A stretch of DNA of 64,000 bases from an uncultured Burkholderiales bacterium (GTDB lineage Bacteria > Pseudomonadota > Gammaproteobacteria > Burkholderiales > Burkholderiaceae_C): positions 39,409 through 103,408 of the forward strand of contig CADEDE010000001.1 of NCBI GenBank assembly GCA_902825995.1. Reading direction: 5' to 3'. The position numbers and the translations under genes are program-made. Positions 24,841 through 39,892 of the stretch are shown one piece after another. The notes under the pieces are model-generated. The model was not told the DNA's origin and did no database searches. It worked only from the letters and a program-made list of their open reading frames with translations. The stretch's first letter is position 1; every line of letters starts with the position of its first letter.

Positions 24841-25746
24841 TTGAATTTCAACAGTACCCTGAAGATCAACTTTCACCAGCTGCGCTGCTTCCATTCCGTC
24901 GCGCAACACGGGAGCTTCACCGGCGCAGCCCGTGCGCTCTTCATCGGGCAGCCAAATGTCACCACGCACGTACGAACGCTCGAGCAGAGGTTCGGAGTCG
25001 AGCTTTTCTGTCGCCGTGGCCACAATGTCGAGCTAACCGATACGGGGCGTCGGCTGCAAACGATCACGCAGCGCATATTCAGCTTGGAAACCGAAGCTGC
25101 GGAAACCCTGGGTGCGGCAGGAGGACTGCTTGCGGGACAGCTCCGCGTCGGGGCCATAGGACCGGCTCAGGTAACCCCGATGGTGCTGGCTTTCGGCCAG
25201 CGCTACTCCGAAGTAGACCTCTCCGTATCGCTGGGCAATACCAAGGAGGTGCTGGAAGGCCTGCTGGCGTTCCGTTCTGACCTTGCCGTTCTTCCGCGCC
25301 TTACGGATCAGCGGTTCCATGCCGTTCCCTACAGTCGCACGCAGGCCATCCTGTTGGTGACGAGCGATCATCGCTGGGCACGAAGGAAGTCGGTGCGTAT
25401 CGAGGAACTTCAAGGCCAGCGTATGGTGTTGCGGGAGGTCGGCTCGGCGACCCGCAGAGTCTTTGAAGATACGCTCGAACAGTTCGGTGTGCAGATCCGT
25501 CGTGTTCTGGAGATCGAGAGTCAGGAGGCCGTCCGAGAGTCGGTTGCGGCGGGAATGGGTATCGGCATCGCGCTTGACGGCGAGACTCACCCGGATCGCC
25601 GTCTGCGCACGTTGGAGATTTCCGATGCGCCCATGGTCCTTGATCTGGAGGTGGCTTGCCTCGCGGAGCGCAAGGCGTCACCGCTCATCAAGGCCTTTTT
25701 CGATCTACTGCAGGAAATGCTAGCGTCACGATCAGGCACGCCATAG
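24841..25746 (+). CDS. phnR: LysR regulator of the aminoethylphosphonate-catabolism type
   Basis: A 301-residue LysR protein with TTG start. The helix-turn-helix (GSFTGAARALFIGQPNVTTH, VRTLEQRFGVELFCRRGHNV) and especially the effector half (LRVGAIGP, SVSLGNTKEVLEGLLAFRSD, VLREVGSATRRVFEDTL, EIESQEAVRESVAAGMGIGI) resemble the LysR subfamily found beside 2-aminoethylphosphonate genes. It is upstream of and codirectional with the phosphonate cluster, and a perfect 17-bp palindrome with T-N11-A symmetry lies 62 bases after its stop. The subfamily call is from motif memory. Confidence 0.8.
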   Translation: MNFNSTLKINFHQLRCFHSVAQHGSFTGAARALFIGQPNVTTHVRTLEQRFGVELFCRRGHNVELTDTGRRLQTITQRIFSLETEAAETLGAAGGLLAGQLRVGAIGPAQVTPMVLAFGQRYSEVDLSVSLGNTKEVLEGLLAFRSDLAVLPRLTDQRFHAVPYSRTQAILLVTSDHRWARRKSVRIEELQGQRMVLREVGSATRRVFEDTLEQFGVQIRRVLEIESQEAVRESVAAGMGIGIALDGETHPDRRLRTLEISDAPMVLDLEVACLAERKASPLIKAFFDLLQEMLASRSGTP

Positions 25747-25807
25747 GGCACGTTCCGCGGCGCTCGCACTACATGACCCGATGAAGCCTTGTGCCCAGGT
25801 GCTCAAG

Positions 25808-25824
25808 GCTTGGTTCGACCAAGC
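25808..25824. promoter_or_regulatory. Candidate LysR operator for the phosphonate cluster
   Basis: GCTTGGTTCGACCAAGC is a perfect 17-bp inverted repeat with one central base, containing the T-N11-A pattern of LysR sites (TTGG...CCAA). It lies between the regulator stop and the first dehydrogenase gene, about 170 bases before its ATG. Confidence 0.65.
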
Positions 25825-25990
25825 ACCTCAAGCGCCGGTGCCCATGGCCATGACATTAGCGACGAGTCATGCGGCTTATGAAGAGGATTCGTTTGACCCC
25901 TACAGATGCTGAGCGCTACTCTTTCCCCAAGCCGCTCAACAATTCGGCCATGTGTTTATCAACCGTCCAGTCCAAGTGAGGATCATTGTC

Positions 25991-26982
25991 CCATGAGTGC
26001 ATTGCGAGTTTCGTTTGTTACCAACGCCAAGGAAGACACCAAGGTTTATACCGACAAGGTTTTTCCAAAGGGCATGGAAGTGCTGCTGCAGACGGAAGAG
26101 GAGATGCTCAAGGACATTGCGAACATTGATGTGCTGATTCCGGGCCACATCAACGTGGGTGCGGACCTGATCGGCCAGGGCAAGCGGCTGAAGCTGATCC
26201 ACTGCGGCACCGGCTACAACAACGTGGACATGGACGCGGCCAACAAGCGAGGCATCTACGTTGCGGTGACGCCCAATGTTGCGGCGCAGTCGGTGGCCGA
26301 ATTGGTATTTGCCTCGTTCCTGACGCTGGCGAAGAAGATTCACATGTTCGATGCGACCATGAAGAAGGGGGGCTGGAAGAGCACCGACTTCATTGACGCG
26401 CCCGAACTGAAGGGCAAAAACCTCGGCGTGGTCGGCTACGGCAATATTGGCAAGGCGGCGGCGCGCATTGGTCGCGGCTTCGGGATGAGCATCATTGCCC
26501 ATGACCCGGGCATTCAGATCACGGATTCGGACGTGAAGTCGGCGAGTCTTGACGAATTGCTGAAGGAATCGGATTTCATTACGCTGCACGTGCTGCTGAC
26601 CCCGCAGACCAAGGGGCTGATTGGCAAGCCGCAGCTCGACATGATGAAGAAGACGGCGATTCTGGCGAATGCCTGCCGGGGGCCGGTGGTGCAAGAAGCG
26701 GCGCTGGTCGAAGCGCTCAAGGCGCGCCAGATTCGCGGTGCGTGCATTGATGTGTTCGAGAAGGAGCCTCTGGCCAAGGAAAGTGGTTTGCGTGGTCTGG
26801 ACAACATCATCCTGACACCGCACATCGGTTACTGCTCGAACGAGGCGCTGGCGGGGCGGTATCAGTTCTTTGCCGAGAATTGCCAGATCCTGGCCGCTGG
26901 GCAGACCCCCAAAATGGCGGTGAACGCCGACAAGGTTACCAAGTAACGCGCTGAAGGCTTCCCCGGCGCCGCCACGGATATC
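25991..26982 (+). repeat. Direct repeat, copy 1 (992 bp)
   Basis: This copy runs from two bases before the dehydrogenase ATG to 36 bases after its stop. The same DNA occurs at 32833-33824. No difference was seen by eye, and the translations agree in both strands. Left of the repeat the sequences are unrelated; right of it they diverge inside the loop of a hairpin. Confidence 0.95.
25993..26946 (+). CDS. D-2-hydroxyacid dehydrogenase, copy 1
   Basis: A 317-residue NAD-type D-2-hydroxyacid dehydrogenase. The Rossmann motif GYGNIG is at 148-153 with an acidic residue (D171) ending the second strand, favouring NAD over NADP. The catalytic set is R229 (NACRG), E258 (FEKEP) and H277 (TPHIG). Family members convert 2-hydroxy acids and 2-oxo acids, for example glycerate and hydroxypyruvate. 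It is the first gene of the phosphonate cluster and directly precedes a transketolase. The Lys that binds phosphite in PtxD is absent. Start chosen at 25993 with GAGG upstream. Confidence 0.92.
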   Translation: MSALRVSFVTNAKEDTKVYTDKVFPKGMEVLLQTEEEMLKDIANIDVLIPGHINVGADLIGQGKRLKLIHCGTGYNNVDMDAANKRGIYVAVTPNVAAQSVAELVFASFLTLAKKIHMFDATMKKGGWKSTDFIDAPELKGKNLGVVGYGNIGKAAARIGRGFGMSIIAHDPGIQITDSDVKSASLDELLKESDFITLHVLLTPQTKGLIGKPQLDMMKKTAILANACRGPVVQEAALVEALKARQIRGACIDVFEKEPLAKESGLRGLDNIILTPHIGYCSNEALAGRYQFFAENCQILAAGQTPKMAVNADKVTK

Positions 26983-26999
26983 CCGGCGGAACCGGGGAA
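26959..26999 (+). promoter_or_regulatory. Stable hairpin after dehydrogenase copy 1
   Basis: Arms 26959-26973 and 26985-26999 (TTCCCCGG.../...CCGGGGAA) pair at 13 of 15 positions. No T-run follows, so this looks like an mRNA-processing or stabilising structure between the dehydrogenase and transketolase genes rather than a terminator. Confidence 0.6.
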
Positions 27000-27041
27000 C
27001 GATGCGATAGTTTCAATCTTCAATCGAATAGGAGTCGGCAA

Positions 27042-29018
27042 ATGGCAAAAAAAACTGTGCAGGAACTGAAAACAATTATTGGCGATTTTAAGGCTCTGGC
27101 AATGTCCATGAGTTCCGGGGTCGGCGGCGGGCACGTCGGTGGTGCCATGTCTTCGGCTGAATACCTGATTGCCGGCTGGTTTTCAAAGCTGAACATTCCG
27201 GATGTAATCGACGGCCCGGATTGGGAAAATCGCGACCGCTTTTTCGTCGGCCAAGGGCACATTACTCCCGGTGTTTACTCGCTGTTGGTGCAGAAGGGCT
27301 ACTACAAGTGGCAGGACACGGCGGGTTATCGCAAGTACGCGAGTCCCTTTCAGGGGCATCCGGACCGTAATCTGCTGAAGGGGTGGGAGATGTCTTCCGG
27401 TTCCCTCGGCCAGGCCTTGGGTGTCGCCGTAGGATGTGCTCTTGCCGCCAAGCTTTCCGGCAAGACCTATCGGGTCGCGACGCTGAACAGCGACGGCGAG
27501 TTGCAAGAGGGAAGCATGTGGGAGGCCATCATGCTTGCCGGCGCCCGCAAGCTCGACAACCTGATCACATTCATCGACTACAACAGAATTCAAAACTACA
27601 ACCGGATCGAACAAACGGCGGATATTCATCCGCTGACCGATAAGTTCCGCGCCTTCAACTGGGATGTCATCGAGATCAACGGCAACGATCTCGAGCAAGT
27701 ACTCGATGCCTATGACAAGGCTCTGGTTCCCGGCAAGGGCAAGCCTACGGTCATTATTGGTCACACCAAGATCGGCAATGGCGTCTCCTTCATGTACGAC
27801 AAGGTGGACTACCATTCGAAGGCGCCGCCGCGGGAAGATTTGCCAAAAGGCATTCAGGAGCTCGGCAGCAATTTCCCGCACCAAGAGTATCTCAAGCTGG
27901 CGGACGAGTACGGCAAGAAAGTAGCCGGGGAATTGAACGCCAAGATGCCGAAGTTCAGTCGTGACTACGGTTGGAACAAAGAAGGCGATACGATGAAGAT
28001 CGCCTTGGTATGGACTGGCGAGGGTATTTCTGCGGCCATGCGGACCTGCATGGACAAGAATCCCAAAGTCATGGTCTGCACGGACGACTCGCACAAGCTG
28101 ATTGGCCTTAACGATAAGGACATGGCGAAATATACGGCCAGCAATCAGTATATTGACGTCGGTTGTGCCGAGCAGAATATGGCGGTGGTGTCGGCGGGGT
28201 TGGCCAAAGAAGGCTTCATCCCAATGGGTAACGGCTATACCGGATTTTGCATTGGCCGTGCCTACGACCACATCCGCACCAGCATTCTGACCACCAACTT
28301 CAACGTCAAGTACTTCCCCACCGAGGGGCTGCTCGGCGGAGACGGCCTTTTGCACGAAGGTCTGGAAGGCATTGCGCTGACCTACTATCTACCCAACTGG
28401 CACGTCTCCTTCCCCTGCGACAACATCGAAGCTCGCAAGGCGTCGATCACCGCCATCTCTGAAATCAATGGGCCGGTGGTCACTTTTCAGGAGCGCGCCC
28501 CCAAGCCGGCCGTAACAAAGGAAGAGACGCCCTACAAATTCGGCATCGCCAACATCATCCGCTACCGCGGACGTCAGGCCCAGTTTGCGGATGCCTTCGA
28601 AACCAAGCTCTCCACCGAGTGGAAGTCTGAGAAAGCCGATTTGGCTATTATCGCGTGCAGTTCCATGGTGGCCGAGGCTATGCGGGCGGCCTATATCCTG
28701 AAGGAAGAAAAAGGGATCGACACCATCGTCGTGAACCTGCACACCATCAAGCCGCTCGATAAGGCTGGTATTCTCAAGGCGGTTCAGGGGGTGAAGGCCG
28801 TCATTACCCATGAGCAGCACGCCAAGGGCGGACTGGGTAATATTATCGCCGGTGTGATCATGGAAGGCGGGCTTGCCAATGCCCCCAAGTTCAAGATGAT
28901 GGGCGTCGAAAATGCCTTCGGTCAGACCGCCAAGCCCTGGGAGTTGATCCAGCACTATGGCCTTACCGCAGAGCATCTTGCCACGACGGCATTGAATGTT
29001 TTGGGTGTTTCCGCGTAA
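27042..29018 (+). CDS. Single-chain transketolase-like TPP enzyme
   Basis: A 658-residue thiamine-diphosphate enzyme with both transketolase halves in one chain. Residues 1-300 hold the TPP/Mg domain: GHVGGAMSSAEY (30-41), SSGSLGQALG (118-127) and the DGELQEG motif (D151) with the distal asparagine near 181. Residues 316-658 hold the pyrimidine domain with GCAEQNM, E377 being the cofactor-activating glutamate. The layout resembles fused archaeal-type split transketolases more than the metabolic TktA. It moves two-carbon ketol units between aldehydes. Placed between the dehydrogenase and phosphonatase genes; ATAGGAG precedes the ATG. Confidence 0.9.
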   Translation: MAKKTVQELKTIIGDFKALAMSMSSGVGGGHVGGAMSSAEYLIAGWFSKLNIPDVIDGPDWENRDRFFVGQGHITPGVYSLLVQKGYYKWQDTAGYRKYASPFQGHPDRNLLKGWEMSSGSLGQALGVAVGCALAAKLSGKTYRVATLNSDGELQEGSMWEAIMLAGARKLDNLITFIDYNRIQNYNRIEQTADIHPLTDKFRAFNWDVIEINGNDLEQVLDAYDKALVPGKGKPTVIIGHTKIGNGVSFMYDKVDYHSKAPPREDLPKGIQELGSNFPHQEYLKLADEYGKKVAGELNAKMPKFSRDYGWNKEGDTMKIALVWTGEGISAAMRTCMDKNPKVMVCTDDSHKLIGLNDKDMAKYTASNQYIDVGCAEQNMAVVSAGLAKEGFIPMGNGYTGFCIGRAYDHIRTSILTTNFNVKYFPTEGLLGGDGLLHEGLEGIALTYYLPNWHVSFPCDNIEARKASITAISEINGPVVTFQERAPKPAVTKEETPYKFGIANIIRYRGRQAQFADAFETKLSTEWKSEKADLAIIACSSMVAEAMRAAYILKEEKGIDTIVVNLHTIKPLDKAGILKAVQGVKAVITHEQHAKGGLGNIIAGVIMEGGLANAPKFKMMGVENAFGQTAKPWELIQHYGLTAEHLATTALNVLGVSA

Positions 29019-29043
29019 GACAACAACCTGTAGGAGAGAAACA

Positions 29044-29943
29044 ATGGCTAGCAAAAGTCTGGTAGATCTGGTTGTCTTCGATCTCGGCGGAACGATTTGC
29101 GATGGCGTGGACAAAGCAACCGGCCTGGGAAATATCGGGCCGATCAACGCTATCGTTCGGAGTCTGAAGAAGATATGGGACGTCGATGTCAGCTACGACA
29201 TCGTGTTGCAATGGATGGCGACGGCGAAACACGAGCACCTCAACCGTTGTCTGCAGTGGCCGTCCGTGAAAGCCCAGTTTGTGGCAAAGCACGGCCGGGA
29301 GCCGACCCGCGACGATGCCATGTTCTGCTTCGAGAATGGATTCAAGCCCATTCTCGAGCAGGAGGAAATGCCGGGCCGCTCGGCCCCCTTCGAGGGGGTC
29401 ATCGACATGTTCAAGGCCCTCAGGGCCAAGGACATCAAGATCGGCGTTGATACGGGCTTTTACGCCAAGGCAGTCCGGATCATCCTGGCGAACTTCGGCC
29501 ATAACGATCTGATTGACGTGGATGTCGGGGCCGACGAGGTGGTCAAGGCGCGCCCTGCCCCGTACATGATCTTCAAGATGATGGCGGAGCTTGGTTTGAT
29601 GGACGTTCGTCGCATCATGAAGGTCGGTGACGTTTATCCGATGGATGTCCTGGAGGGCTATAACCTCGGGGGTATTTCGGTCGGACTCTATGAGACCGGA
29701 AATACCCGGCCCGCCAGTGCCTGGAAGGCTTTCAATGTCGAAGGGCGGCAGGTTGTGCCGGTGGACTGGTTCACCAGCAGCTTGGCAGACAAGGAAAAGT
29801 TGTTCAAGGGATGGCTCAGAGATGCGGCAGAACGCGGAACCAGAGTGCCATACCCGATGATTCTCATACCGCATGCCAAGCAGTTGACCGAGGTGATCAA
29901 TGACCTGGAGAAGATTGAGCCGTTGTTTACTTCCTTGCTTTAA
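29044..29943 (+). CDS. phnX: Phosphonatase-type HAD hydrolase (PhnX-like)
   Basis: A 299-residue HAD protein that aligns with phosphonoacetaldehyde hydrolase. The nucleophile is D13 in FDLGGT; the second aspartate of ordinary phosphatases is replaced by G, as expected for a phosphonatase (Ala in PhnX). The cap domain has K62 in MATAKHEHLNR at the place of the Schiff-base lysine (MGLLKIDHVR in Bacillus PhnX). T137, R170 (ARPAPYMIFK) and KVGD with D201 complete the site. It should cleave phosphonoacetaldehyde, or a close relative, to aldehyde plus phosphate. AGGAG precedes ATG 29044. Confidence 0.85.
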   Translation: MASKSLVDLVVFDLGGTICDGVDKATGLGNIGPINAIVRSLKKIWDVDVSYDIVLQWMATAKHEHLNRCLQWPSVKAQFVAKHGREPTRDDAMFCFENGFKPILEQEEMPGRSAPFEGVIDMFKALRAKDIKIGVDTGFYAKAVRIILANFGHNDLIDVDVGADEVVKARPAPYMIFKMMAELGLMDVRRIMKVGDVYPMDVLEGYNLGGISVGLYETGNTRPASAWKAFNVEGRQVVPVDWFTSSLADKEKLFKGWLRDAAERGTRVPYPMILIPHAKQLTEVINDLEKIEPLFTSLL

Positions 29944-29970
29944 CAATAGCTGATTTAATTTAGTTCCAGT

Positions 29971-30016
29971 CCGCCAGTTTTCCTTCTTTGGTGAGGGAAA
30001 ATTGGCGGCTTTTTCT
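29971..30016 (+). terminator. Intrinsic terminator after phnX-like gene
   Basis: CCGCCAGTTTTCC pairs with GGGAAAATTGGCGG across a short loop, followed by CTTTTTC. This is a strong rho-independent terminator that ends the dehydrogenase-transketolase-phosphonatase unit. Confidence 0.85.
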
Positions 30017-30389
30017 TTGGACGCCATTAGATTTTTATCGCGCGCCTGATTTAAACGGAAACTACCAAGCGTTTTTGCACCAGAGATGCACATCGATCAA
30101 GGCATTGTGGTGCGACTACAGCGAAGCCAGGCGCCACAGCAGCAAAGCAATGAACAGGCTGCTGGAATACGGCAAGCGCGCCGCCTGGAGCTTTCTCACA
30201 AACAAGAACTTCATTACCATCGCCTGGTTGCGGCGAGTCCATGCTCGGGCATATGCCAGCTTATCTGCTTATTCCCCCAGCACCAAAGTCACGCTCGTCG
30301 CAACGACCAGCATCTGGAGTTGATTGATATTTTGGCACTGGCAAACGCATGGATTTTCGGACTCAAGTCTCATATTTAAATCCGAGCGA
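30017..30389. other. AT-rich spacer without a convincing gene
   Basis: About 370 bases with much lower GC than the genome. Several short open frames exist on both strands, none with a recognisable protein or ribosome site. It separates the terminator at 29971 from a promoter before the DUF47 gene. Confidence 0.5.
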
Positions 30390-30419
30390 TTGATTTTAAT
30401 TCTCTGAATACGATATATT
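30390..30419 (+). promoter_or_regulatory. Putative sigma-70 promoter for DUF47-PiT unit
   Basis: TTGATT (30390-30395) and TATATT (30414-30419) are separated by 18 bases, 21 bases before the DUF47 ATG, leaving room for its GAGGAG ribosome site. It fits a short-leader transcript that restarts after the terminator at 29971. Confidence 0.5.
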
Positions 30420-30440
30420 TTACTCCGAGGAGACCACATC

Positions 30441-31112
30441 ATGAGCTTTGAAATCGGTTTTTCAAAAATGAAACTGTTTGGTCGAACCAATGCTGTTGAA
30501 GGCCAGATCGACGAATTCTTCGACAAGATAGGAGAAATAGGCATAGTTTTTCACAAGGCGATGCGCTCATATCTTGAGGATGGGTATCGTGAAGAGTTCG
30601 AGGTGTTCCTGAAGCAGGGTACGACTATCGAAAACCGTGCCGATGACCTGCGGCGTGATATTGAAAAACAGCTATATCTACAAACTCTCATTCCAGATCT
30701 TCGAGGTGACGTTCTTCGTCTTCTGGAGGACATGGATAATCTGACAAATATCTACGAAGCAGATCTTTACCGCTTTGCCATTCAGCGCCCAGAAATTCCT
30801 TCTGAATACAAGAGGGATTTCATGGAGCTCACTGAGATGGCGATCAAATGCGTGGAAACTACAATAATCTGCGCTCGTGCTTTTTTCAGAGATATTGAAG
30901 CAGTACGCGATCATCATGCTAGGGTGATCTTTCACGAATCGGAGGCCGATCAAATAAGTTCGCGTATGCAACGCGCTATATTTGGATCAGCACTTTCCCT
31001 GGACCGCAAGATGCATCTAAGATATTTTATCGAGCGGATTGATGAGCTTGCAAATAAGGCGGAAGATGTTTCAGACACTCTGGCAATCTACGCGTTAAAG
31101 CGTCGCATCTGA
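30441..31112 (+). CDS. DUF47 / PhoU-like accessory protein, first copy
   Basis: A 223-residue all-helical protein of the DUF47 (PhoU-related) family. Acidic helix motifs such as EGQIDEFFDKIGE, LLEDMDNLTNIYEADL and RIDELANKAEDVSDTL are those that bind metal clusters in PhoU. Such proteins are usually encoded next to PiT phosphate transporters and gate them. GC is near 50 percent by eye, far below the flanks, suggesting a different origin. It precedes the PiT gene by 108 bases. Confidence 0.88.
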   Translation: MSFEIGFSKMKLFGRTNAVEGQIDEFFDKIGEIGIVFHKAMRSYLEDGYREEFEVFLKQGTTIENRADDLRRDIEKQLYLQTLIPDLRGDVLRLLEDMDNLTNIYEADLYRFAIQRPEIPSEYKRDFMELTEMAIKCVETTIICARAFFRDIEAVRDHHARVIFHESEADQISSRMQRAIFGSALSLDRKMHLRYFIERIDELANKAEDVSDTLAIYALKRRI

Positions 31113-31220: not shown

Positions 31221-32699
31221 ATGGAACTGACCACCATTATCTTTCTTACAAGCGGGCTTTTCCTCGGTTGGTCGCTCGGAGCCAACGACGCTGCCAATGT
31301 ATTCGGTACGGCGGTGGGTACCCGCATGATCAGGTTTGGCACCGCGGCGGCTATTTGCAGCGTGTTTGTGATCCTCGGCGCGGTCATCAGCGGTGCCGGC
31401 GCGGCACATACGCTCAGCACATTGGGTTCGGTAAACGAGCTTGCCGGTGCGTTCATGGTGGCGCTGGCTGCGGCCTATACGGTCTATCAGATGACCAGGC
31501 TGGGCCTACCTGTTTCGACCACGCAGGCAATCGTTGGCGCTATCGTCGGCTGGAATCTGTTCAGTGAGTCGATTACGGATACGGCTGCCTTGACCAAGAT
31601 TCTCATGACCTGGGTGGCGTGTCCGGTGCTTTCCGCCCTCATCGCCATGCCGACATTCAAACTGACAGAATTCTTTGTCTATAGGCTTAATGTTCATTTG
31701 GTGCGTCAGGATGCCTATACGCGAATTGCGCTGATCGTGGCCGGTATTCTTGGGGCATATAGTCTCGGCGCCAACAACATTGCCAACGTTGTCGGTGTAT
31801 TCATTCCTGTTTCTCCGTTTACTGATTTCAGTGTTGCAGGGCTATTTGCATTGAGCTCCGCGCATCAACTTTTTCTTATAGGTGGCATTGCTATTGCGGT
31901 AGGTGTGATAACCTATTCCAAGAAAGTGATGCTCACCGTGGGGCAGGATCTTTTCGCGCTTTCGCCGACGGCGGCTTTTGTGGCGGTTATGGCCCATTCG
32001 GTCGTTCTGTTTCTATTTGCCTCCGAAGGACTTGAGCACCTGCTTGCCAGTGCCGGTCTGCCCACGATACCACTGGTGCCGGTTTCCAGTTCACAGGCGA
32101 TTGTCGGTGCCGTGATCGGAATCGGTCTTCTCAAGGGTGTTCATACCATTCGTTGGCGAGTCGTTGGAAATATTAGCGTTGCCTGGGCAGCTACCCCGCT
32201 TATTTCTGCAATGATTTGCCTCATATCATTGTACATACTACAGAATGTATTCAATCAGCAAGTTTATAAATCGGTCGAGTACTCACTCTCTGTCGAGGCG
32301 ATAGAAAAACTCGGCGAGAAAGTTATTCCCGCAGGATCGCTGGCAGAAATGAATGGAGAGATTTTCAAAAGTGGAACGCGCTTCCTGCGTGCTGTGAACA
32401 AGCATGTCAAACTGGACCAGAAGCAGGAGCGCCAAGTGCTTTGGTACGCAGAGGTTGGGCGTTACAAGATCGACCCGGCAAAAATTGAAAAATTTGATGA
32501 CGGCTGGCTGACGCCCGGGCAGATCGCAGCGCTACGCCAGTTGTCGGGAATGGCGTTTACCGAGAAATGGCGCATTGCCGAAGCGCTTGCTGTGCGTAGC
32601 GATGAATGGAAGTCACTTCCAGACGCGACGATCAACAAGCTCCACAACAAGGGTATCAAAGATAAAATTGGCGTTATTCTAAAAACTTTTTCAGAATAA
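31221..32699 (+). CDS. PiT-family phosphate transporter, long form
   Basis: A 492-residue inner-membrane protein with both PiT repeats: GANDAANVFGTAVG near the N-terminus and GANNIANVVGVF in the middle, plus the VSTTQAIVGA and VSSSQAIVGA loops. About ten membrane helices end near residue 350; a soluble tail of about 140 residues follows (YKSVEYSLSVEAIEKL ... GVILKTFSE). PiT proteins are proton- or cation-coupled and could run either way. With the DUF47 gene before it, it forms a transport pair inside the phosphonate cluster. Low GC. Confidence 0.9.
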   Translation: MELTTIIFLTSGLFLGWSLGANDAANVFGTAVGTRMIRFGTAAAICSVFVILGAVISGAGAAHTLSTLGSVNELAGAFMVALAAAYTVYQMTRLGLPVSTTQAIVGAIVGWNLFSESITDTAALTKILMTWVACPVLSALIAMPTFKLTEFFVYRLNVHLVRQDAYTRIALIVAGILGAYSLGANNIANVVGVFIPVSPFTDFSVAGLFALSSAHQLFLIGGIAIAVGVITYSKKVMLTVGQDLFALSPTAAFVAVMAHSVVLFLFASEGLEHLLASAGLPTIPLVPVSSSQAIVGAVIGIGLLKGVHTIRWRVVGNISVAWAATPLISAMICLISLYILQNVFNQQVYKSVEYSLSVEAIEKLGEKVIPAGSLAEMNGEIFKSGTRFLRAVNKHVKLDQKQERQVLWYAEVGRYKIDPAKIEKFDDGWLTPGQIAALRQLSGMAFTEKWRIAEALAVRSDEWKSLPDATINKLHNKGIKDKIGVILKTFSE

Positions 32700-32832: not shown

Positions 32833-33824
32833 CCATGAGTGCATTGCGAGTTTCGTTTGTTACCAACGCCAAGGAAGACACCAAGGTTTATACCGACAAG
32901 GTTTTTCCAAAGGGCATGGAAGTGCTGCTGCAGACGGAAGAGGAGATGCTCAAGGACATTGCGAACATTGATGTGCTGATTCCGGGCCACATCAACGTGG
33001 GTGCGGACCTGATCGGCCAGGGCAAGCGGCTGAAGCTGATCCACTGCGGCACCGGCTACAACAACGTGGACATGGACGCGGCCAACAAGCGAGGCATCTA
33101 CGTTGCGGTGACGCCCAATGTTGCGGCGCAGTCGGTGGCCGAATTGGTATTTGCCTCGTTCCTGACGCTGGCGAAGAAGATTCACATGTTCGATGCGACC
33201 ATGAAGAAGGGGGGCTGGAAGAGCACCGACTTCATTGACGCGCCCGAACTGAAGGGCAAAAACCTCGGCGTGGTCGGCTACGGCAATATTGGCAAGGCGG
33301 CGGCGCGCATTGGTCGCGGCTTCGGGATGAGCATCATTGCCCATGACCCGGGCATTCAGATCACGGATTCGGACGTGAAGTCGGCGAGTCTTGACGAATT
33401 GCTGAAGGAATCGGATTTCATTACGCTGCACGTGCTGCTGACCCCGCAGACCAAGGGGCTGATTGGCAAGCCGCAGCTCGACATGATGAAGAAGACGGCG
33501 ATTCTGGCGAATGCCTGCCGGGGGCCGGTGGTGCAAGAAGCGGCGCTGGTCGAAGCGCTCAAGGCGCGCCAGATTCGCGGTGCGTGCATTGATGTGTTCG
33601 AGAAGGAGCCTCTGGCCAAGGAAAGTGGTTTGCGTGGTCTGGACAACATCATCCTGACACCGCACATCGGTTACTGCTCGAACGAGGCGCTGGCGGGGCG
33701 GTATCAGTTCTTTGCCGAGAATTGCCAGATCCTGGCCGCTGGGCAGACCCCCAAAATGGCGGTGAACGCCGACAAGGTTACCAAGTAACGCGCTGAAGGC
33801 TTCCCCGGCGCCGCCACGGATATC
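32833..33824 (+). repeat. Direct repeat, copy 2 (992 bp)
   Basis: Same DNA as 25991-26982 in the same orientation, 6842 bases further on. The copies bracket the transketolase, phosphonatase, DUF47 and PiT genes, so homologous recombination could delete or amplify that block. Confidence 0.95.
32835..33788 (+). CDS. D-2-hydroxyacid dehydrogenase, copy 2
   Basis: A protein identical over all 317 residues to the one encoded at 25993-26946, with GYGNIG 148-153, R229, E258 and H277. The leader differs: AAGG nine bases before ATG 32835; an in-frame ATG at 32826 would add three residues. It heads the second half of the cluster, before the PhnY-like dehydrogenase. An extra copy with its own leader suggests a dosage need or independent expression with each half. 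Confidence 0.92.
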   Translation: MSALRVSFVTNAKEDTKVYTDKVFPKGMEVLLQTEEEMLKDIANIDVLIPGHINVGADLIGQGKRLKLIHCGTGYNNVDMDAANKRGIYVAVTPNVAAQSVAELVFASFLTLAKKIHMFDATMKKGGWKSTDFIDAPELKGKNLGVVGYGNIGKAAARIGRGFGMSIIAHDPGIQITDSDVKSASLDELLKESDFITLHVLLTPQTKGLIGKPQLDMMKKTAILANACRGPVVQEAALVEALKARQIRGACIDVFEKEPLAKESGLRGLDNIILTPHIGYCSNEALAGRYQFFAENCQILAAGQTPKMAVNADKVTK

Positions 33825-33840: not shown

Positions 33841-33860
33841 CGATGACAATATATTGGAGT

Positions 33861-33876: not shown

Positions 33877-33885
33877 AACGATGGG

Positions 33886-35316
33886 ATGAATGCCTTGGTG
33901 AAACCTGCGGTGGAGTACATGAAGTGCTTCGTTGCGGGGGAATGGCTCGACTCCACTGATCGAATAGAGGTTTACAACCCCTATACCGGTGATCTGGTCG
34001 GTACCGCGCCCAAGCTGAGCGCCGAACAAGTTGCCCAGGCGGTGGATGCACTGGCGGCCTACAAGCCCAAGATTTCCGCTCATCAACGCGGTGAAATCCT
34101 GTTCAAGGCCGCGCAGGGTGTGAAAGCGCGCAAGGACGAACTCGCCCTCGGGATCACGTCGGAATCCGGCATGTCGCTGAAGAACAGCCGGGTCGAGGTG
34201 GACCGCACCGTCGGTCTGCTGCTCACGGCCTCCGAGGAGGCCAAGCGCATCATGGGCGAACAGATTCCGAGCGATACCGACTCGGCGGGCCAGAACAAGA
34301 TCATTCTCGCAACGCGCTTCCCGGTCGGTGTCGTCACGGCCATCGTGCCCTTCAACCGCCCCCTGAACCAGGTTGCAATGAAGATCGCGCCGTCGTTTGC
34401 CGCGGGCAACAAGACAATCATCAAGCCGTCCCAGTCTGTCCCGCTGTCGGCCTTCCGCCTGCTCCACATCCTTCTCGAGGCTGGCATGCCTGCGGAGATG
34501 ATCAGCGTCGTAACCGGCAGCTCGAGCGAGATCGGCGAGGTGCTGGTCGCCAACAAGAAGGTTGACATGGTGACCTTCACCGGCAGCACCGCGGTCGGCC
34601 GGCGCCTGGTGCAGATGGCCGGCATCAAGCGGGTCACGATCGAAGCCGGGGGCAACGATCCGCTCATCCTTTGCGAAGATGCGAATATCGACAAATCGGT
34701 AGAAATCGCGGTCGTCGGCGCCTATCGCAACGCGGGACAGTCCTGCCGCGGCATCAAGCGCATCATTGCCCACGCATCGATTGCCGACGCGTTCGCCCAG
34801 AAGTTCACCGAGAAGTCCAGAGCGCTCAAATGCGGCAACCCCTTCGATCCCGAGACCGATATCGGCACCTTGATCGATGAGAAGGCGGCCAAGGGCGTGG
34901 AGCAGGCGGTCAACGAGGCGGTCAAGGACGGCGCCAAGGTTCTGTGCGGGCATGAGCGCAAGGGTGCGCTGTATTTGCCGACGGTCGTCGACCATGTCCG
35001 CCGCGACTCGAACATGGTGGTCGAGGAGTGCTTCGGCCCGACCGCGCCGATCATCCGCTGCAAGAGCCTGGAAGAAGCGGTCGAGATCGCGAACTCGACC
35101 GAGTACGGCCTGCAATCCGGCGTCATGACCAACAATTTCGAGTCGATCCGCTACTGCATCAACAACCTCAACGTGGGTGCCGTCAATATCAACGAGGGTC
35201 CGCAGTTCGACATGCCGAATATTCCCTTCGGAGGCGTGAAGCAAAGCGGCATCGGCCGCGAAGGCATTCGCTATGCGATACAGGAGATGACCTACGTGAA
35301 GACGGTGGTGATGTAG
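33886..35316 (+). CDS. phnY: Aldehyde dehydrogenase, phosphonoacetaldehyde dehydrogenase-like (PhnY)
   Basis: A 476-residue NAD(P)-dependent aldehyde dehydrogenase. Catalytic parts: N157 (VPFN), FTGSTAVG (231-238), general base E253 (TIEAGGNDP), nucleophile C287 (NAGQSC) and EECFGPTAPI. It resembles PhnY, which oxidises phosphonoacetaldehyde to phosphonoacetate. As I recall, Sinorhizobium PhnY has Arg just before the catalytic Cys and His after the PFN asparagine; here these are Ser286 and Arg158, so the phosphonate pocket may be altered. Next gene is phnA, which would use its product. Confidence 0.85.
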   Translation: MNALVKPAVEYMKCFVAGEWLDSTDRIEVYNPYTGDLVGTAPKLSAEQVAQAVDALAAYKPKISAHQRGEILFKAAQGVKARKDELALGITSESGMSLKNSRVEVDRTVGLLLTASEEAKRIMGEQIPSDTDSAGQNKIILATRFPVGVVTAIVPFNRPLNQVAMKIAPSFAAGNKTIIKPSQSVPLSAFRLLHILLEAGMPAEMISVVTGSSSEIGEVLVANKKVDMVTFTGSTAVGRRLVQMAGIKRVTIEAGGNDPLILCEDANIDKSVEIAVVGAYRNAGQSCRGIKRIIAHASIADAFAQKFTEKSRALKCGNPFDPETDIGTLIDEKAAKGVEQAVNEAVKDGAKVLCGHERKGALYLPTVVDHVRRDSNMVVEECFGPTAPIIRCKSLEEAVEIANSTEYGLQSGVMTNNFESIRYCINNLNVGAVNINEGPQFDMPNIPFGGVKQSGIGREGIRYAIQEMTYVKTVVM

Positions 35317-35385
35317 CGCGATGTCCAGCCGAGCGGCGGCAACAGCGCGTGAGGCAGGATCGCGGTTCGTGATCGGCGATGAGTG

Positions 35386-35408: not shown

Positions 35409-35424
35409 ACTTTTGGGGGCAGGA

Positions 35425-36576
35425 ATGGGCAAAGCAATGAACAACAAGCGCAAGATTCTGATCGTCATGATGGACGGCTTCGACCCGGCCTACCTTCAGG
35501 CCAGCGACATGCCGAATACCAAACGCATGATCGCCGACGGCTTCTACAAGACGGTGAAAGGCATGATGCCCAGCGTCACCAACGTCAACAACACGGGCAT
35601 CTGCTGCGGCGGGCCGCCTTCCTTGCACGGGATCACGGCCAACTCCTACTTCGATCTGCAAACGAGGAAAGAGGAGTACATGGACAAGGCCTCGATGGTG
35701 CTCGCGCCCACGGTGTTCGAACGCGCGGCAAAGCACGGTCTCAAATCGGCGTTGCTGACCGCGAAGAAGAAAACCCAGTCGCTGCTGCGGACCGGGGCCA
35801 CGATCCGGCTGGCGGCGGAGGCGCCGCAGGATGCCGAGGGCAGCGATATCGACTGGACCGGCCGGCTCGGCCCGGCGCCCGAAATCTATTCGCCCGAAAT
35901 CAACCACTGGCTGTTCCGCGCGGCCCAGATCGTGCTCAACGAGACCGATGTGGATCTCTTGTATTTCCATACCACCGACTACCCGATGCACATGGAGCCG
36001 CCATGGGGCGAGATGTCGCGCTTTCACCTGGGTGAATGGGACCGGCTGCTCGGCGAAACGCTGGATGCGCACCCGCAGATGGAGGTCTATATGTCCGCCG
36101 ATCACGGCATGAACTTCAAGTCGCGCTGCTACGACCTCAACAAGGTGGTGCCCGCGAAGGGTGCGGAGATCTTTTTCGCCATGTCGGCCGAACGCGATCC
36201 CTACGTCAAACACCATCGCACATTTGGCGGCACCGCCTTCGTCTGGCTCAAGCGGCCAGGCGACTTCGAGCGCGTCGCCGACGTTTGCCGCCGGCTGCAA
36301 GGCGTCGAAGCCGTCTATGACCGCTATACCGCGGCATCCCGGTTCGAGCTGCATCCCGACCGCATCGGCGACATGCTGGTCATCGGCGATATCGACACCG
36401 TATTCGGCCCGCTGGACGGCAAGGAAGGCGTCGAGGAGTTGCCGCAGGGCTTTCGCACCCACGGCGGCAGCGACGAGACCAATACGCCGTTGATCATCTA
36501 CAACCGCGAGGTCGATCCCCGCGACTGGCATCGCTACCGGTGCAACTACGACCTGATCCGGCCGATCGGGTTCTAG
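35425..36576 (+). CDS. phnA: Phosphonoacetate hydrolase
   Basis: A 383-residue alkaline-phosphatase-superfamily enzyme. The nucleophile is T52 in MPSVTNVNN, the PhnA signature. Metal ligands are D17 (MMDGFD), D185 and H189 (TTDYPMH), D226 and H227 (ADHG) and H346 (RTHGG), all present. It hydrolyses phosphonoacetate to acetate and phosphate using two zinc ions. The upstream aldehyde dehydrogenase supplies phosphonoacetate; the downstream CobW protein may supply zinc. The start at 35425 follows GGGGGCAGGA; an inner ATG at 35437 is possible. Confidence 0.9.
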   Translation: MGKAMNNKRKILIVMMDGFDPAYLQASDMPNTKRMIADGFYKTVKGMMPSVTNVNNTGICCGGPPSLHGITANSYFDLQTRKEEYMDKASMVLAPTVFERAAKHGLKSALLTAKKKTQSLLRTGATIRLAAEAPQDAEGSDIDWTGRLGPAPEIYSPEINHWLFRAAQIVLNETDVDLLYFHTTDYPMHMEPPWGEMSRFHLGEWDRLLGETLDAHPQMEVYMSADHGMNFKSRCYDLNKVVPAKGAEIFFAMSAERDPYVKHHRTFGGTAFVWLKRPGDFERVADVCRRLQGVEAVYDRYTAASRFELHPDRIGDMLVIGDIDTVFGPLDGKEGVEELPQGFRTHGGSDETNTPLIIYNREVDPRDWHRYRCNYDLIRPIGF

Positions 36577-36584
36577 GCGGCTGA

Positions 36585-38201
36585 ATGCATTCATCGAACC
36601 GCGATCCGATTTCGGTCTCGGTCATCACCGGTTTCCTCGGCAGCGGCAAGACGACCCTGCTGAACCGCCTGCTGGCGAGCCCAGGGATGGACCGCACGGC
36701 GGTCATCGTCAACGAATTCGGCGAAGTCGGGATCGACCATCTGATCGTGCGCGAGATCGACGAGGCCACGGTGCTGCTGAAATCGGGCTGCATCTGTTGC
36801 ACCGTGCAGGGTGAGCTGGTCGACGGCCTCAAGGAGTTGTACATGAAGGGCCTGGCGGGCACGCTGCCGCCCTTCACCCGGGTCGTGATCGAGACCACGG
36901 GGCTCGCGGATCCGCTGCCCATAGTGACCTGCCTCGTGCGCGACCCCCTGTTCAAGCATGTTTACCGTCTGGACGCCCTGATAGCGACGGTGGACGCGGT
37001 TCATGGTGACGCGCAGCTCGACCGCTATACCGAGGCGGTGCGCCAGGCCGCGGTGGCCGATCGGCTGGTGATCACGAAGTCCGACCTGGCCGAGGCAAAC
37101 GTGCCGCGATTGCGCTCTCGGCTCGAGACTCTGAATCCCGGCGCCGCGATCATCGTGGCGGTGCAGGGCCAGGTGGCGCCGAGCCGGCTGTTCGACGCCG
37201 GCCCCTTCGATCCGCAGACGAAATCGGCCGACGTTCAGCGCTGGCTGAACGACGAGGCCTATTTGCATGCGGGGCGCCACGCGCACGCACATTCTCACTC
37301 GCATGCCCATGACGAAGCAGCACCGGACGTCGTGGACGTGAATCGCCACGACGAGCGAATCACCTCGTTTTGCCTCACCCTGGACGAGCCCGTGGCGTGG
37401 GCGGCGGTCAAGGGCTGGTTCGAAGAGTTGACCGAGAAACACGGCGATCGCATCCTGCGAGCGAAAGGCATCGTTAACGTACTCGGCGAGTCCGAACCGT
37501 TCATCGTCCAGTGTGTGCAATCGACGCTGTATCCATCTAGTCAGCTCGCGGCGTGGCCGAGCCAGGACCGGCGCTCCCGCATCGTCTTCATCACGGAAGA
37601 CCTGCCGCGCTGCGACATCGAAAGCAGCTTGGGCGAGCACGTGGCCCGTGCAGCGCAGACTGGCGCGAATGCAAATCGGGCGCCGAAGCCGCCGGCCCCC
37701 GACGCTGGTGCGGGCCACAGTGGACGTTGGCTCAATGAGGCCGAACTGAGCCGGATTTTTCAGGCTTTCACATTCAGTCCGGATCGCACTGCGGCCGACC
37801 TGCTCAGACTGATGCTGCTTACCGGCGTTCCGGCCGCGGATATACGCCAAGCGAGTTGGGCAGACATCGATCTGGACCGTCGGGTCTGGATGCTGCCTCG
37901 GCCGCAGTCGGCGGCAAGTTCGATCAGGTCGCGGCCTCGGCGCGTCGCGCTTGGCGACGCCGCCGCAATGCTCCTTACCGACTTACGCGGGCGCGCGAGC
38001 CGCCAGCAACTTTTTTCAAGCCTGCACGGCGCTGGCGGCATGCTCCGCGTCCAAACGGCATGGCAGGCCGCCAGTGAATCTGCTAACATTACCGACCTGC
38101 CTCTGGAGTCGGTGCGGCCTGTGCTCGCGACGAATCTGTTTCGCGGCATCCCACTCACGCTTGCCCGCAAGTTGCTCGGGCTTATCCATGAGGACCACTG
38201 A
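36585..38201 (+). CDS. CobW/COG0523 GTPase fused to an integrase-like domain
   Basis: A 538-residue protein. Residues 1-345 are a G3E metallochaperone: GFLGSGKTT (16-24), metal-binding CICC (69-72), ETTGLADP (103-110), TKSD (164-167), a His-rich loop HAHAHSHSHAH (232-242) and a CobW C-terminal domain. After a loose linker, residues 382-535 look like a tyrosine-recombinase catalytic fold (LLRLMLLTGVPAADIRQASW, ADIDLDRRVWMLPRP, RRVALGDAAAMLL) but lack the Arg, HxxR and Tyr. It probably loads zinc into PhnA next door; the extra domain is unexplained. Eight bases after phnA. Confidence 0.85.
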   Translation: MHSSNRDPISVSVITGFLGSGKTTLLNRLLASPGMDRTAVIVNEFGEVGIDHLIVREIDEATVLLKSGCICCTVQGELVDGLKELYMKGLAGTLPPFTRVVIETTGLADPLPIVTCLVRDPLFKHVYRLDALIATVDAVHGDAQLDRYTEAVRQAAVADRLVITKSDLAEANVPRLRSRLETLNPGAAIIVAVQGQVAPSRLFDAGPFDPQTKSADVQRWLNDEAYLHAGRHAHAHSHSHAHDEAAPDVVDVNRHDERITSFCLTLDEPVAWAAVKGWFEELTEKHGDRILRAKGIVNVLGESEPFIVQCVQSTLYPSSQLAAWPSQDRRSRIVFITEDLPRCDIESSLGEHVARAAQTGANANRAPKPPAPDAGAGHSGRWLNEAELSRIFQAFTFSPDRTAADLLRLMLLTGVPAADIRQASWADIDLDRRVWMLPRPQSAASSIRSRPRRVALGDAAAMLLTDLRGRASRQQLFSSLHGAGGMLRVQTAWQAASESANITDLPLESVRPVLATNLFRGIPLTLARKLLGLIHEDH

Positions 38202-39248
38202 ATGAACATGACCATCCTTGCGCTGGCGCTGGCGATCATCGTCATCGTGCTGATTTTCGACTTTACCAACGGCTTCAACGACTCGGCGCCGGTCGTGGCG
38301 GCGGTCATTTCATCCGGAGCGATGACGCCGCGGAACGCACTTCTGGCGGCCGCCACGTTTGAGTTCATCGGCGCCTACTTTCTCGGCACGGCTGTTGCCA
38401 AGATGATCGGTACCGGCATCATCGATCCGCAGGCCGTTTCGGCGCACGTGATTCTTGTTGCGGTGGTTTCGGCAATCGTGTGGAACCTTCTGGCTTGGTA
38501 CCGGGGCGTTCCGACAAGCTCTTCGCATGCGCTGATCGGCGGCTTGATCGGCTCGGCCGTGGTCGCCGGCGGATGGGGACTGGTCAAGTGGTCCAATGTG
38601 CTGAAAATCTACCAGGTGCTGATCATGTCTCCGGTGCTTGGACTCGCTATCGGATACCTGCTAACGCGCACGGCTTTCGTCGTCTTGCGGCAGTCGCGCC
38701 CGACACCCACGAACAAGGCCTTGTTGCGCATGCAGCCCTGGGCAGCATTCGCTCTGGCGCTGAGCCACGGCTCGAACGACGCGCAAAAGGGCATGGGCCT
38801 CATCACGATGGCGCTTCTTATGCTGTACCCGCTCGCGCCCGAGACGATCGCCGTGTTCTATACGCCCGGCACCGCAGGACAGTTCATTGTTCCGCAATGG
38901 GTCATCATTGCCGCTTCCCTCGCGATCGCCCTCGGCATGGCGACCGGCGGCATGCGGATCATCCGCACCCTCGGCGGGGGGATGTACCGCATTCGCCCGA
39001 TTCACGGCTTTACGTCGCAGGTCAGTTCGGCGTCGATCGTTTATGTGGCGGCGATGGCGGGTTTTCCCGTGAGCACGAGCCAGATCGCCTCTTCATCGAT
39101 CCTGGGCGCCGGCGCGGCGCAGCGGATCAATGCGGTGCGCTGGTCGCCGGTGCGAACCATGATCCTTGCGTGGGTCATCACGATTCCATCCGCGGCGGCG
39201 GTCAGCGCACTGATCTATTCAATCACGCGCTGGATGCTGGCAATCTGA
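38202..39248 (+). CDS. PiT-family phosphate transporter, short form
   Basis: A 348-residue membrane protein with the two PiT signatures DFTNGFNDSAPVVA (N-terminal) and SHGSNDAQKGMG (middle) and a final VSTSQIASSSILGAG loop. It is a compact PiT without the tail seen in the first copy, with GC close to the genome average. It starts directly after the CobW stop, so it is in the same transcript as phnA. The following DUF47 gene completes a second transport pair. Direction of phosphate flow is not known. Confidence 0.9.
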   Translation: MNMTILALALAIIVIVLIFDFTNGFNDSAPVVAAVISSGAMTPRNALLAAATFEFIGAYFLGTAVAKMIGTGIIDPQAVSAHVILVAVVSAIVWNLLAWYRGVPTSSSHALIGGLIGSAVVAGGWGLVKWSNVLKIYQVLIMSPVLGLAIGYLLTRTAFVVLRQSRPTPTNKALLRMQPWAAFALALSHGSNDAQKGMGLITMALLMLYPLAPETIAVFYTPGTAGQFIVPQWVIIAASLAIALGMATGGMRIIRTLGGGMYRIRPIHGFTSQVSSASIVYVAAMAGFPVSTSQIASSSILGAGAAQRINAVRWSPVRTMILAWVITIPSAAAVSALIYSITRWMLAI

Positions 39249-39274
39249 GGCGCACTCGAAAGGAAGGCATTGCT

Positions 39275-39892
39275 ATGGGACTGTTCGGCGGCAAAAAAGA
39301 GACCGATTTTTTCAAACTGCTCACTGATCAAGCAACAAAGACGCTCGAAGGTGTCGAGGCGCTCGCGACATACCTCGAGACGATGGACACCGCAGATGGG
39401 CAGAAGGTCAAGGAAATAGAAACCCAGGCGGACGAAATCCGCAGGGTGCTGATCGAGGAACTCAACCTGACGTTCGTGACGCCGGTCGACCGGGAGGATC
39501 TGTTCGCGCTTTCGGGTGCGATCGACGATGTCGTTGACTACGCGAATACAACGGTCTATGAGTTCGAGATCTACCGCCTGCAATCTGCCGACGATCACGT
39601 CAAGCGGCTGGTCCAGCTCCTTCGCGAGCAGGCGCGCGAGTTGTTGAATGCCGTCAAGACGCTCGACAGCTATCCGCGACTGGCGAACGAACACGCCGTC
39701 AAGGCGAAGAAGGTCGAAAACCTGATGGAACGCGCCTATCGCGACGCTCTCGGCGAGCTGTTTCTCGGCACCGACACCGTGCATATGTTGAAGATGCGCG
39801 AAATCTACCGCCACCTGAGCAATGCCGCCGATCGGGGCGACAAGGCCGCGGATACGATCCACAGCATCGTGGTCAAGCGCGGCGGTTCGTAA
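39275..39892 (+). CDS. DUF47 / PhoU-like accessory protein, second copy
   Basis: A 205-residue helical protein: KKETDFFKLLTDQATKTLEG, EADEIRRVLIEELNLTFVTPVDRED and LSNAADRGDKAADTIHSIV are standard DUF47 stretches. It is only distantly related to the first copy at 30441. A good AAAGGAAGG ribosome site lies before ATG 39275. It closes the phosphonate island; ordinary chromosomal genes begin at 40017. Confidence 0.9.
   Translation: MGLFGGKKETDFFKLLTDQATKTLEGVEALATYLETMDTADGQKVKEIETQADEIRRVLIEELNLTFVTPVDREDLFALSGAIDDVVDYANTTVYEFEIYRLQSADDHVKRLVQLLREQARELLNAVKTLDSYPRLANEHAVKAKKVENLMERAYRDALGELFLGTDTVHMLKMREIYRHLSNAADRGDKAADTIHSIVVKRGGS

Follow-up and report, generated by a model that had tools for sequence, protein, structure and literature searches.

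Introduction

As laid out in the accessible portions of the relevant papers, the described hydrolytic routes of phosphonate catabolism are PhnWX, PhnWAY and PalAB with the ancillary PbfA-PbfD (PMC8154272, PMC10574752), and they start from amino-phosphonates by means of enzymes dependent on pyridoxal phosphate (PLP) or flavin adenine dinucleotide (PMC10574752, PMC8154272, PMC12366243). Neither transketolase nor thiamin is mentioned in the available part of one review of this subject (PMC10574752). Similarly partial sources place PbfF, a hydroxyphosphonate racemase of family PF02826, in alphaproteobacterial clusters that are mostly of the phnWYA type and always include pbfA (PMC12366243), and cite a 2-hydroxyacid dehydrogenase that reduces phosphonopyruvate to phosphonolactate in biosynthesis (PMC12871164). 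Here we describe an island at positions 24841-39892 of a 64,000-nucleotide stretch of DNA (the window) from an uncultured Burkholderiales bacterium, contig CADEDE010000001.1, which we read on balance as a composite phosphonate-catabolism island with two modules for hydrolysis of the carbon-phosphorus (C-P) bond, opened by a duplicated D-2-hydroxyacid dehydrogenase (2HDH) gene.

An earlier, sequence-only reading of this DNA had described a LysR-type regulator followed by eleven genes in one direction, and all twelve genes indeed lie on the + strand with intact frames, in families that hold at the Pfam and superfamily level. Behind the regulator, the genes form a module A (2HDH, a transketolase-like enzyme (TK), a PhnX-like hydrolase, DUF47 and PiT) and a module B (2HDH, a PhnY-like and a PhnA-like enzyme, CobW, PiT and DUF47). 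That reading also held that the gene set matches no described operon, and we too found no match to the set as a whole. Phosphonate catabolism by PhnX-like and PhnY/PhnA-like C-P hydrolysis is still the best reading of these genes, and we consider it probable that the island serves this purpose.

Results and discussion

Module A in five genomes

The most telling feature of the island is the pairing of transketolase with phosphonatase, which the sequence-only reading had listed and not singled out. This subfamily of PhnX-like proteins was found in five genomes, namely the window's host, OFTM98 (L017), OFTM67 (L018), OFTM50 (L015) and a Rhodospirillales metagenome-assembled genome (MAG; G852); all five are drafts, four of them MAGs by title, and the entries G738 and G850 of our searches are OFTM50 and OFTM98 in these counts. 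2HDH, TK and the PhnX-like protein are present in every one of the five, across three lineages and at 62-68% identity to those of the window, and TK lies directly 5' of PhnX in all of them. The window and the three gammaproteobacterial MAGs share the gene order 2HDH-TK-PhnX, and in these relatives one gene of the major facilitator superfamily (MFS) separates genes of a phosphonate (phn) importer from module A. The full order in OFTM50 is PhnD, PhnC, PhnE, PhnE, MFS, 2HDH, TK, PhnX-like, DUF47, PiT, LysR. OFTM67 reads PhnE-MFS-2HDH-TK-PhnX-DUF47-PiT-LysR on a contig that starts just 5' of PhnE, with identities to the window of 63% for 2HDH, 67% for TK, 66% for PhnX, 50% for DUF47, 57% for PiT and 60% for the LysR encoded on the minus strand of the window, and OFTM98 has PhnD-PhnC-PhnE upstream of module A in a stretch that ends at PhnX.

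In the Rhodospirillales MAG, TK (66%) and PhnX (64%) stand side by side close to the end of a contig, and the 2HDH orthologue (62%) sits on a separate 4.95-kb contig. At its end, this small contig carries part of a canonical transketolase, matching positions 2-503 of TIGR00232, and the TK-PhnX contig has positions 510-651 of the same model at its own end. Because the two halves of one canonical transketolase occupy the two contig ends, 2HDH, TK and PhnX appear to be neighbours here as well, the likely order, judged from two unjoined ends, being 2HDH-Tkt-TK-PhnX. Upstream of 2HDH in this MAG (contigs C37 and C8; L053 and L037) is an H+-pyrophosphatase gene (PF03030).

We gauged how widespread the module is from genome samples and pattern scans. 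TK protein searches found three genomes at E<=1e-150 among 229 of the class (own genome, OFTM50 and OFTM98) and 1 of 240 at E<=1e-140 within the Rhodospirillales MAG's own class. With the window PhnX as query at E<=1e-20, the 399 genomes searched in the order gave seven matching genomes, its own and six others of 31-34% identity (four of these six were aligned, and all four carry canonical PhnX motifs); at E<=1e-28, the 249 genomes of the phylum gave only its own. At E<=1e-50, a PhnX alignment matched a single genome among the 289 from the class to which the Rhodospirillales MAG belongs; among the 17 from OFTM50's order it matched three, all within one of 8 genera. Scanning the genome collection with an alignment of three PhnX-like proteins gave 45 stretches and four loci, in three gammaproteobacterial MAGs and one Rhodospirillales MAG, and the same scan with the window PhnX alone gave 16 stretches and no relatives. 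Two possible sources were tried and rejected: a pattern scan of viral contigs returned 178 stretches without a PhnX-family relative, which speaks against a phage, and all 50 plasmid records that match the PhnX family do so at less than 60% identity, which speaks against a plasmid. The gaps at 24435-24840 and 29944-30440 had no plasmid match.

The ratio of nonsynonymous to synonymous substitution rates (dN/dS, NG86) between OFTM50 and OFTM67, two species of one genus, is 0.058 for 2HDH, 0.031 for TK, 0.065 for PhnX and 0.035 for PiT. Values this low indicate that the module genes are under constraint, and that purifying selection on module A is strong, in that one relative genus.

Enzymes of module A

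Analysis of the PhnX-like protein revealed that D13, M58, K62, H65, R170 and D196 are invariant in all nine aligned sequences, four canonical PhnX rows included; by analogy with Bacillus cereus PhnX, we take D13 to be the nucleophile and K62 the Schiff-base lysine, with the Met and His beside it. In motif I, which is DLG, the second Asp of phosphatases of the haloacid dehalogenase (HAD) superfamily is missing, as it is in PhnX (DWA). Identity to the four canonical rows is 28-30%, the subfamily carries two insertions, one of 7 residues that follows motif I and one of 20 close to the C terminus, and the score against TIGR01422 is 128.7 bits, under the cut-off of 220. We used an AlphaFold2 model from a deeper alignment, which included the canonical PhnX rows, with a predicted local distance difference test (pLDDT) score of 87.5 (66.2 for an earlier model). 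The first eight Foldseek matches of this model were PhnX or PhnX-like structures, with 1fez at the top (E 5.3e-15, TM 0.68/0.78, root-mean-square deviation 7.4, a deviation that may be due to the cap). By its catalytic residues and predicted fold, the protein is likely a divergent phosphonatase, with phosphonoacetaldehyde as its candidate substrate.

The TK protein is full length, and its H31, H73, H106, D151, H258, E377 and D434, invariant in seven of seven sequences, align with human transketolase H37, H77, H110, D155, H258, E366 and D424, which we take to be thiamin diphosphate (ThDP) and catalytic residues. Human R318, H416 and R474, presumably the anchors of the sugar phosphate, align to G326, P426 and K488, again invariant in 7/7, with a gap beside R318 that makes its column uncertain. 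It shares 66-68% identity with the module-A TKs of the other four genomes and 60% with a paralogue found in OFTM50 and OFTM98, which lies in a neighbouring cluster together with another 2HDH. In OFTM50 this cluster (C13; L014 3273-13321) holds a DeoR-like regulator (by eye), two pyruvate-dehydrogenase-type E1 alpha/beta pairs, the second TK, the other 2HDH, a 3-hydroxyacyl-CoA-dehydrogenase-like protein and an E2, and may encode a separate pathway that has a TK-2HDH partnership too. Phosphonothrixin, a beta-ketophosphonate whose biosynthesis reportedly uses transketolase-like proteins, was considered as a possible substrate.

Phosphite oxidation was considered for 2HDH, and no entry named phosphite dehydrogenase (PtxD) occurred among its 55 PDB matches at E<=1e-30. 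The annotations of 14 annotated plasmid phn stretches include no 2-hydroxyacid dehydrogenase, and the window 2HDH had no match among the open reading frames of five plasmid phn stretches, that of E. adhaerens Casida A included.

Enzymes of module B

The sequence-only reading had reported that motifs with catalytic residues are visible in the PhnX-, PhnY- and PhnA-like proteins, and conserved catalytic residues were indeed found in all three. In the PhnA-like protein, D31, D199, H203, D240, H241, H360, K128 and K130 (numbered from 35383) are identical in the alignment with 1ei6 to residues that we take to be its metal ligands and carboxylate-binding lysine pair. The PhnY-like protein keeps its catalytic Cys, but two of three phosphonate-binding residues differ from 4i3t, which we take, residue roles included, to be Sinorhizobium meliloti PhnY: one Arg is kept, a His is replaced by Arg and an Arg by Ser. 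The methanogen lactaldehyde dehydrogenase model gives this protein 506.4 bits, next to the TIGR03250 score listed in Table 1.

Searches with the PhnA-like protein found 1 of 250 genomes in the order (E<=1e-60, its own) and 2 of 274 in the class (E<=1e-50). The second of these two, 41% identical to the protein of the window (G797:C159, L060 9612-13304), lies directly 3' of PhnD-, PhnC- and PhnE-like genes, of which PhnE scores over its cut-off and PhnD and PhnC under theirs, in a stretch where nothing matches the window's PhnY-like protein.

PhnW, importer and phosphate transporters

The absence of PhnW claimed by the sequence-only reading stands for the island genes. Genome-wide, no TIGR03301 match over the cut-off was found in any of the five genomes, the host draft included, but none of 14 control genomes passed either, so the sensitivity of this search is not demonstrated; the best match under the cut-off, in the Rhodospirillales MAG, reached 153.6 of 360.8 bits. 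That such an absence is unusual, as the same reading implied, is not borne out by a comparison with 15 hand-picked plasmid neighbourhoods of phnA/phnY homologues, whose gene tables are incomplete and of which 13 were used (one of the others lacked annotation, and one, haloarchaeal, had no gene called phnA). PhnW is annotated in eight of the 13 phnA neighbourhoods and missing from five. Of those five, two show phnA without phnY, and an iron-containing alcohol dehydrogenase (Fe-ADH) is annotated in the other three, which come from Ensifer sp. PDNC004, Variovorax paradoxus VAI-C and Leisingera thetidis. The Leisingera thetidis plasmid (L069 2386-12519) carries LysR, the Fe-ADH gene psrA, phosphonate ABC importer genes, phnA, phnY and a Na/Pi (sodium/inorganic phosphate) cotransporter, with no annotated PhnW, and its content suggests a hydroxyethylphosphonate route. 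A Na/Pi cotransporter is annotated in 6/13 phnA neighbourhoods, so that handling phosphate would be an obvious role for PiT-DUF47.

The claim that there is no importer is likewise correct for the island and fails for the genome. Proteins of the PhnD family (PF12974) score over the cut-off in all five genomes; the host copy, on contig C40, is followed by two PhnE-type permeases, of which one scores above the PhnE cut-off and the other below it, and the gammaproteobacterial relatives carry phn importer genes next to module A.

Layout, duplication and composition of the island

The genes of the island and its left flank are listed in Table 1. Likely true starts, judged by eye, are those listed there for the two 2HDH copies, together with 29044 for PhnX, about 35437 for PhnA and 39275 for the second DUF47 gene. 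None of the twelve island proteins reached the curated cut-off of any listed NCBIfam family (for LysR and the PhnY-like protein, among the best 25 of 53 and the best 25 of 44 matches).

Table 1. Coordinates in the window of the island genes and of two genes upstream, with the basis of each assignment.
Feature	Coordinates	Strand	Basis
LysR-type regulator, GcvA-like	22328..23284	-	59.6% identity to LysR directly 3' of PiT in L018; NF008352 326.8 bits (> 288 cut-off)
Reductase, NAD-binding and 2Fe-2S ferredoxin domains	23412..24434	-	PF00175, PF00111 over cut-off; island link uncertain
LysR-type regulator near phn_lysR family	24841..25746	+	TIGR03339 284.7 bits (cut-off 341.1)
2HDH copy 1	25991..26982	+	PF02826/PF00389; ATG 25993; exact direct repeat
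Transketolase-like (TK) ThDP enzyme, 658 aa	27042..29018	+	PF00456/PF02779/PF02780
Likely divergent phosphonatase, PhnX-like, HAD hydrolase, 299 aa	29044..29943	+	Catalytic residues; Foldseek
DUF47/PhoU-like protein a (module A)	30441..31112	+	PF01865; 49.5% identity to same-place gene in L018
PiT-family anion transporter a (PHO4/PiT, module A)	31221..32699	+	PF01384; 56.9% identity to same-place gene in L018
2HDH copy 2	32833..33824	+	Exact direct repeat of copy 1; ATG 32835
PhnY-like aldehyde dehydrogenase	33886..35316	+	PF00171; TIGR03250 510.8 bits (cut-off 635.65); best PDB sequence match 4i3t
PhnA-like alkaline-phosphatase-superfamily hydrolase (type I phosphodiesterase)	35437..36576	+	PF01663; TIGR02335 192 bits (cut-off 407.55)
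CobW/COG0523 GTPase with integrase-like C-terminal tail (residues 382-532)	36585..38201	+	PF02492, PF07683, PF00589
PiT-family phosphate transporter (module B)	38202..39248	+	PF01384 275.2 bits
DUF47/PhoU-like protein b (module B)	39275..39892	+	PF01865 76.3 bits

The two dehydrogenases that the sequence-only reading counted as distinct turned out to be one gene in two copies, a direct repeat of 992 nt with no mismatch (25991-26982 = 32833-33824, spacing 6842) that begins 2 bases 5' of the start codon and ends 36 nt beyond the stop, both flanks differing at once. Each copy opens one module and has its own upstream sequence; recombination between them would delete TK, PhnX, DUF47, PiT and one 2HDH copy. 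An exact repeat this long in a draft assembly (2.82 Mb in 140 contigs) raises the possibility of an artefact, in which case the joining of modules A and B would be one as well, and the repeat's ending just beyond the gene fits such an error. The separate sequence on either side of each copy argues against it, as does the G+C content of the two modules, both of which lie below the flanks, and we regard an artefact as rather unlikely.

G+C runs at 0.45-0.65 per gene in the island, lowest in the DUF47-PiT pair of module A (0.45 and 0.52), and at 0.65-0.72 per 2 kb in the flanks. The island looks foreign by this lower G+C, from which alone we would say that it was probably acquired horizontally. 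Because a 497-bp gap precedes the first DUF47 gene and the two halves are unlike in G+C, a single eleven-gene operon is doubtful.

As to regulation, the LysR of the island is 43.5% identical to that of the psrA-phnA-phnY cluster of Ensifer sp. PDNC004, and the minus-strand LysR at 22328-23284, outside the span of the sequence-only reading, belongs with module A by sequence comparison. The reductase gene adjoins this minus-strand regulator, with no oxygenase gene assigned beside it. What that reading called a CobW fusion is indeed CobW, its partner being an integrase-like C-terminal tail (a Phage_integrase match of 34.2 bits); among 1433 plasmid records matching this protein, none covers 80% of its length, and the 12 matches listed stop at residue 340-350. 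The right end of the window (64000) is the end of contig C1, of which the window spans bases 39409-103408 of 103408.

A proposed pathway and its alternatives

We lean slightly towards 2HDH and TK acting upstream of PhnX. Module A could then be an undescribed pathway, with a chance a little short of even, in which ThDP chemistry by TK, together with 2HDH, makes a carbonyl phosphonate for a new phosphonatase subfamily, in parallel to sulfo-transketolase (sulfo-TK). In such a scheme, 2HDH would oxidise a hydroxyphosphonate, most likely 3-phosphonolactate to phosphonopyruvate; TK with ThDP would form a carbonyl phosphonate, most likely by decarboxylating phosphonopyruvate to phosphonoacetaldehyde and CO2; and the PhnX-like enzyme would cut the C-P bond, with Asp as the nucleophile and Lys forming a Schiff base, to give acetaldehyde and phosphate. 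In module B, the PhnY-like enzyme would oxidise phosphonoacetaldehyde to phosphonoacetate, which the PhnA-like enzyme, a metal-dependent hydrolase, would split into acetate and phosphate, possibly with CobW as a metal chaperone, and the PiT-DUF47 pairs would move the freed phosphate. All substrates, the directions of the 2HDH and TK steps and the roles of PiT/DUF47 and CobW are what we infer. The phosphonopyruvate route was chosen because it uses every conserved enzyme, and as the route in particular it is tentative and on the unlikely side. Phosphonoacetaldehyde as the hub, proposed by the sequence-only reading, is plausible but unproven, the PhnX-, PhnY- and PhnA-like proteins all being divergent.

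Several points weigh against this scheme. The key proteins fall under the curated cut-offs of their namesake families (PhnX, PhnY and PhnA), and to this are added the two altered residues of the PhnY-like protein. The Rhodospirillales MAG has no importer, DUF47 or PiT in the stretches read, and module B was seen beside module A in no relative examined; the family co-occurrence put forward as a check by the sequence-only reading was found for the module A core and not for the two modules together. No phosphonate gene lies in the stretch read around the TK paralogue, and a TK-2HDH pairing without PhnX weakens a claim specific to phosphonates, as the two enzymes may serve ordinary carbon metabolism. 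We know of no transketolase that decarboxylates phosphonopyruvate, and all substrates and activities proposed here are predictions from sequence.

Two other routes are serious rivals. One, by analogy with sulfo-TK, has TK split a phosphono-ketose (e.g. 4-deoxy-4-phosphonoerythrulose), passing a C2 unit to a sugar phosphate and phosphonoacetaldehyde to PhnX. Sulfonate catabolism offers a direct precedent, as in the accessible part of one report SqwGH frees sulfoacetaldehyde (PMC9594981), and TK keeps the His residues of the ThDP site; moreover, in the Rhodospirillales MAG, going by two contig ends, a canonical transketolase apparently separates 2HDH from TK. This route is nevertheless unlikely, as it leaves 2HDH unexplained, the island genes include neither an isomerase nor a phosphono-sugar enzyme, and no phosphono-ketose of this sort is known to us. 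The other rival, to which we give a slightly better though still low chance, has 2HDH alone make the aldehyde or prepare the substrate, like the Fe-ADH (possibly on 2-hydroxyethylphosphonate) or like the racemase PbfF, with TK in an ancillary role such as C2 salvage. It would account for the duplicated 2HDH heading both modules, and it has parallels in the Fe-ADH that stands where PhnW is missing in the Ensifer, Variovorax and Leisingera clusters and in PbfF, a PF02826 enzyme that acts on a hydroxyphosphonate in phnWYA clusters (PMC12366243, seen in part). The clusters of PbfF, however, always include pbfA according to that same partial source (PMC12366243), and there is no PLP enzyme among the island genes; the position of TK directly 5' of PhnX in 5/5 genomes would also be odd for an ancillary enzyme.

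Least probable of all is that the locus has nothing to do with phosphonates, the HAD protein acting on a phosphorylated or other carbonyl sugar intermediate from 2HDH and TK, with the PhnY- and PhnA-like proteins as unrelated neighbours. The scores under the cut-offs, the TK-paralogue cluster and the absence of module B beside module A in the relatives examined, all noted above, would fit this view. Set against it are a Schiff-base Lys without a second catalytic Asp, which in the roles we take these residues to have is phosphonatase and not phosphatase chemistry, the phn importer genes beside module A, and the PhnA-like homologue of G797 that also lies behind PhnD/C/E-like genes.

If the TK step is true, the module would be a new entry into C-P bond hydrolysis and would suggest that non-amino phosphonates (e.g. 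phosphonolactate) serve as natural nutrients. Five genomes and three enzymes are available for a direct test of the idea.

Comparison with known systems

A 2HDH-TK-phosphonatase module is not described in the phosphonate literature that we searched, most subscription papers lying outside that search. Compared with PhnWX (TIGR01422), the island shares a predicted HAD phosphonatase that has the Asp nucleophile and the Schiff-base Lys, a LysR regulator and, in relatives, phn importer genes; it differs in having no PhnW and in a PhnX-like protein that is far from the canonical ones, with its two insertions, and is coupled to 2HDH and TK. PhnW-less phnA-phnY clusters are already known in databases. 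With PhnWAY and the PhnW-less Fe-ADH-phnA-phnY clusters, the island has in common LysR (in two of the three clusters), a dehydrogenase, PhnA and PhnY, to which the Leisingera cluster adds a terminal phosphate transporter, whereas the island has a D-2-hydroxyacid dehydrogenase in place of Fe-ADH, and CobW and PiT-DUF47 in place of the Na/Pi cotransporter; identities to the proteins of the three Fe-ADH clusters are 31-32% for PhnA-like and 41-46% for PhnY-like.

Within phosphonate catabolism, the closest precedent that we found for an enzyme of the 2HDH family is PbfF, likened here by family only (PF02826) and by its presence in phosphonate clusters, and it cautions against reading 2HDH as a plain dehydrogenase; unlike the PbfF clusters, the island is without PbfA or any other PLP enzyme. 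For TK, the nearest precedent by analogy is sulfo-TK (SqwGH), as described in the accessible part of PMC9594981: if the rival built on it is right, a transketolase makes a C2 aldehyde with an anionic head group in both, with sulfonate sugars and an isomerase there and a phosphonatase and 2HDH here. If instead the favoured route is right, the island would share the phosphonopyruvate intermediate with the PalAB phosphonoalanine pathway, differing from it in that no PalA- or PalB-type family occurs among its genes and that the C-P bond would be cleaved by PhnX-like and PhnA-like enzymes. What is new relative to all of these systems is a conserved and rarely found 2HDH-TK-phosphonatase module, a putative variant of hydrolytic phosphonate catabolism.

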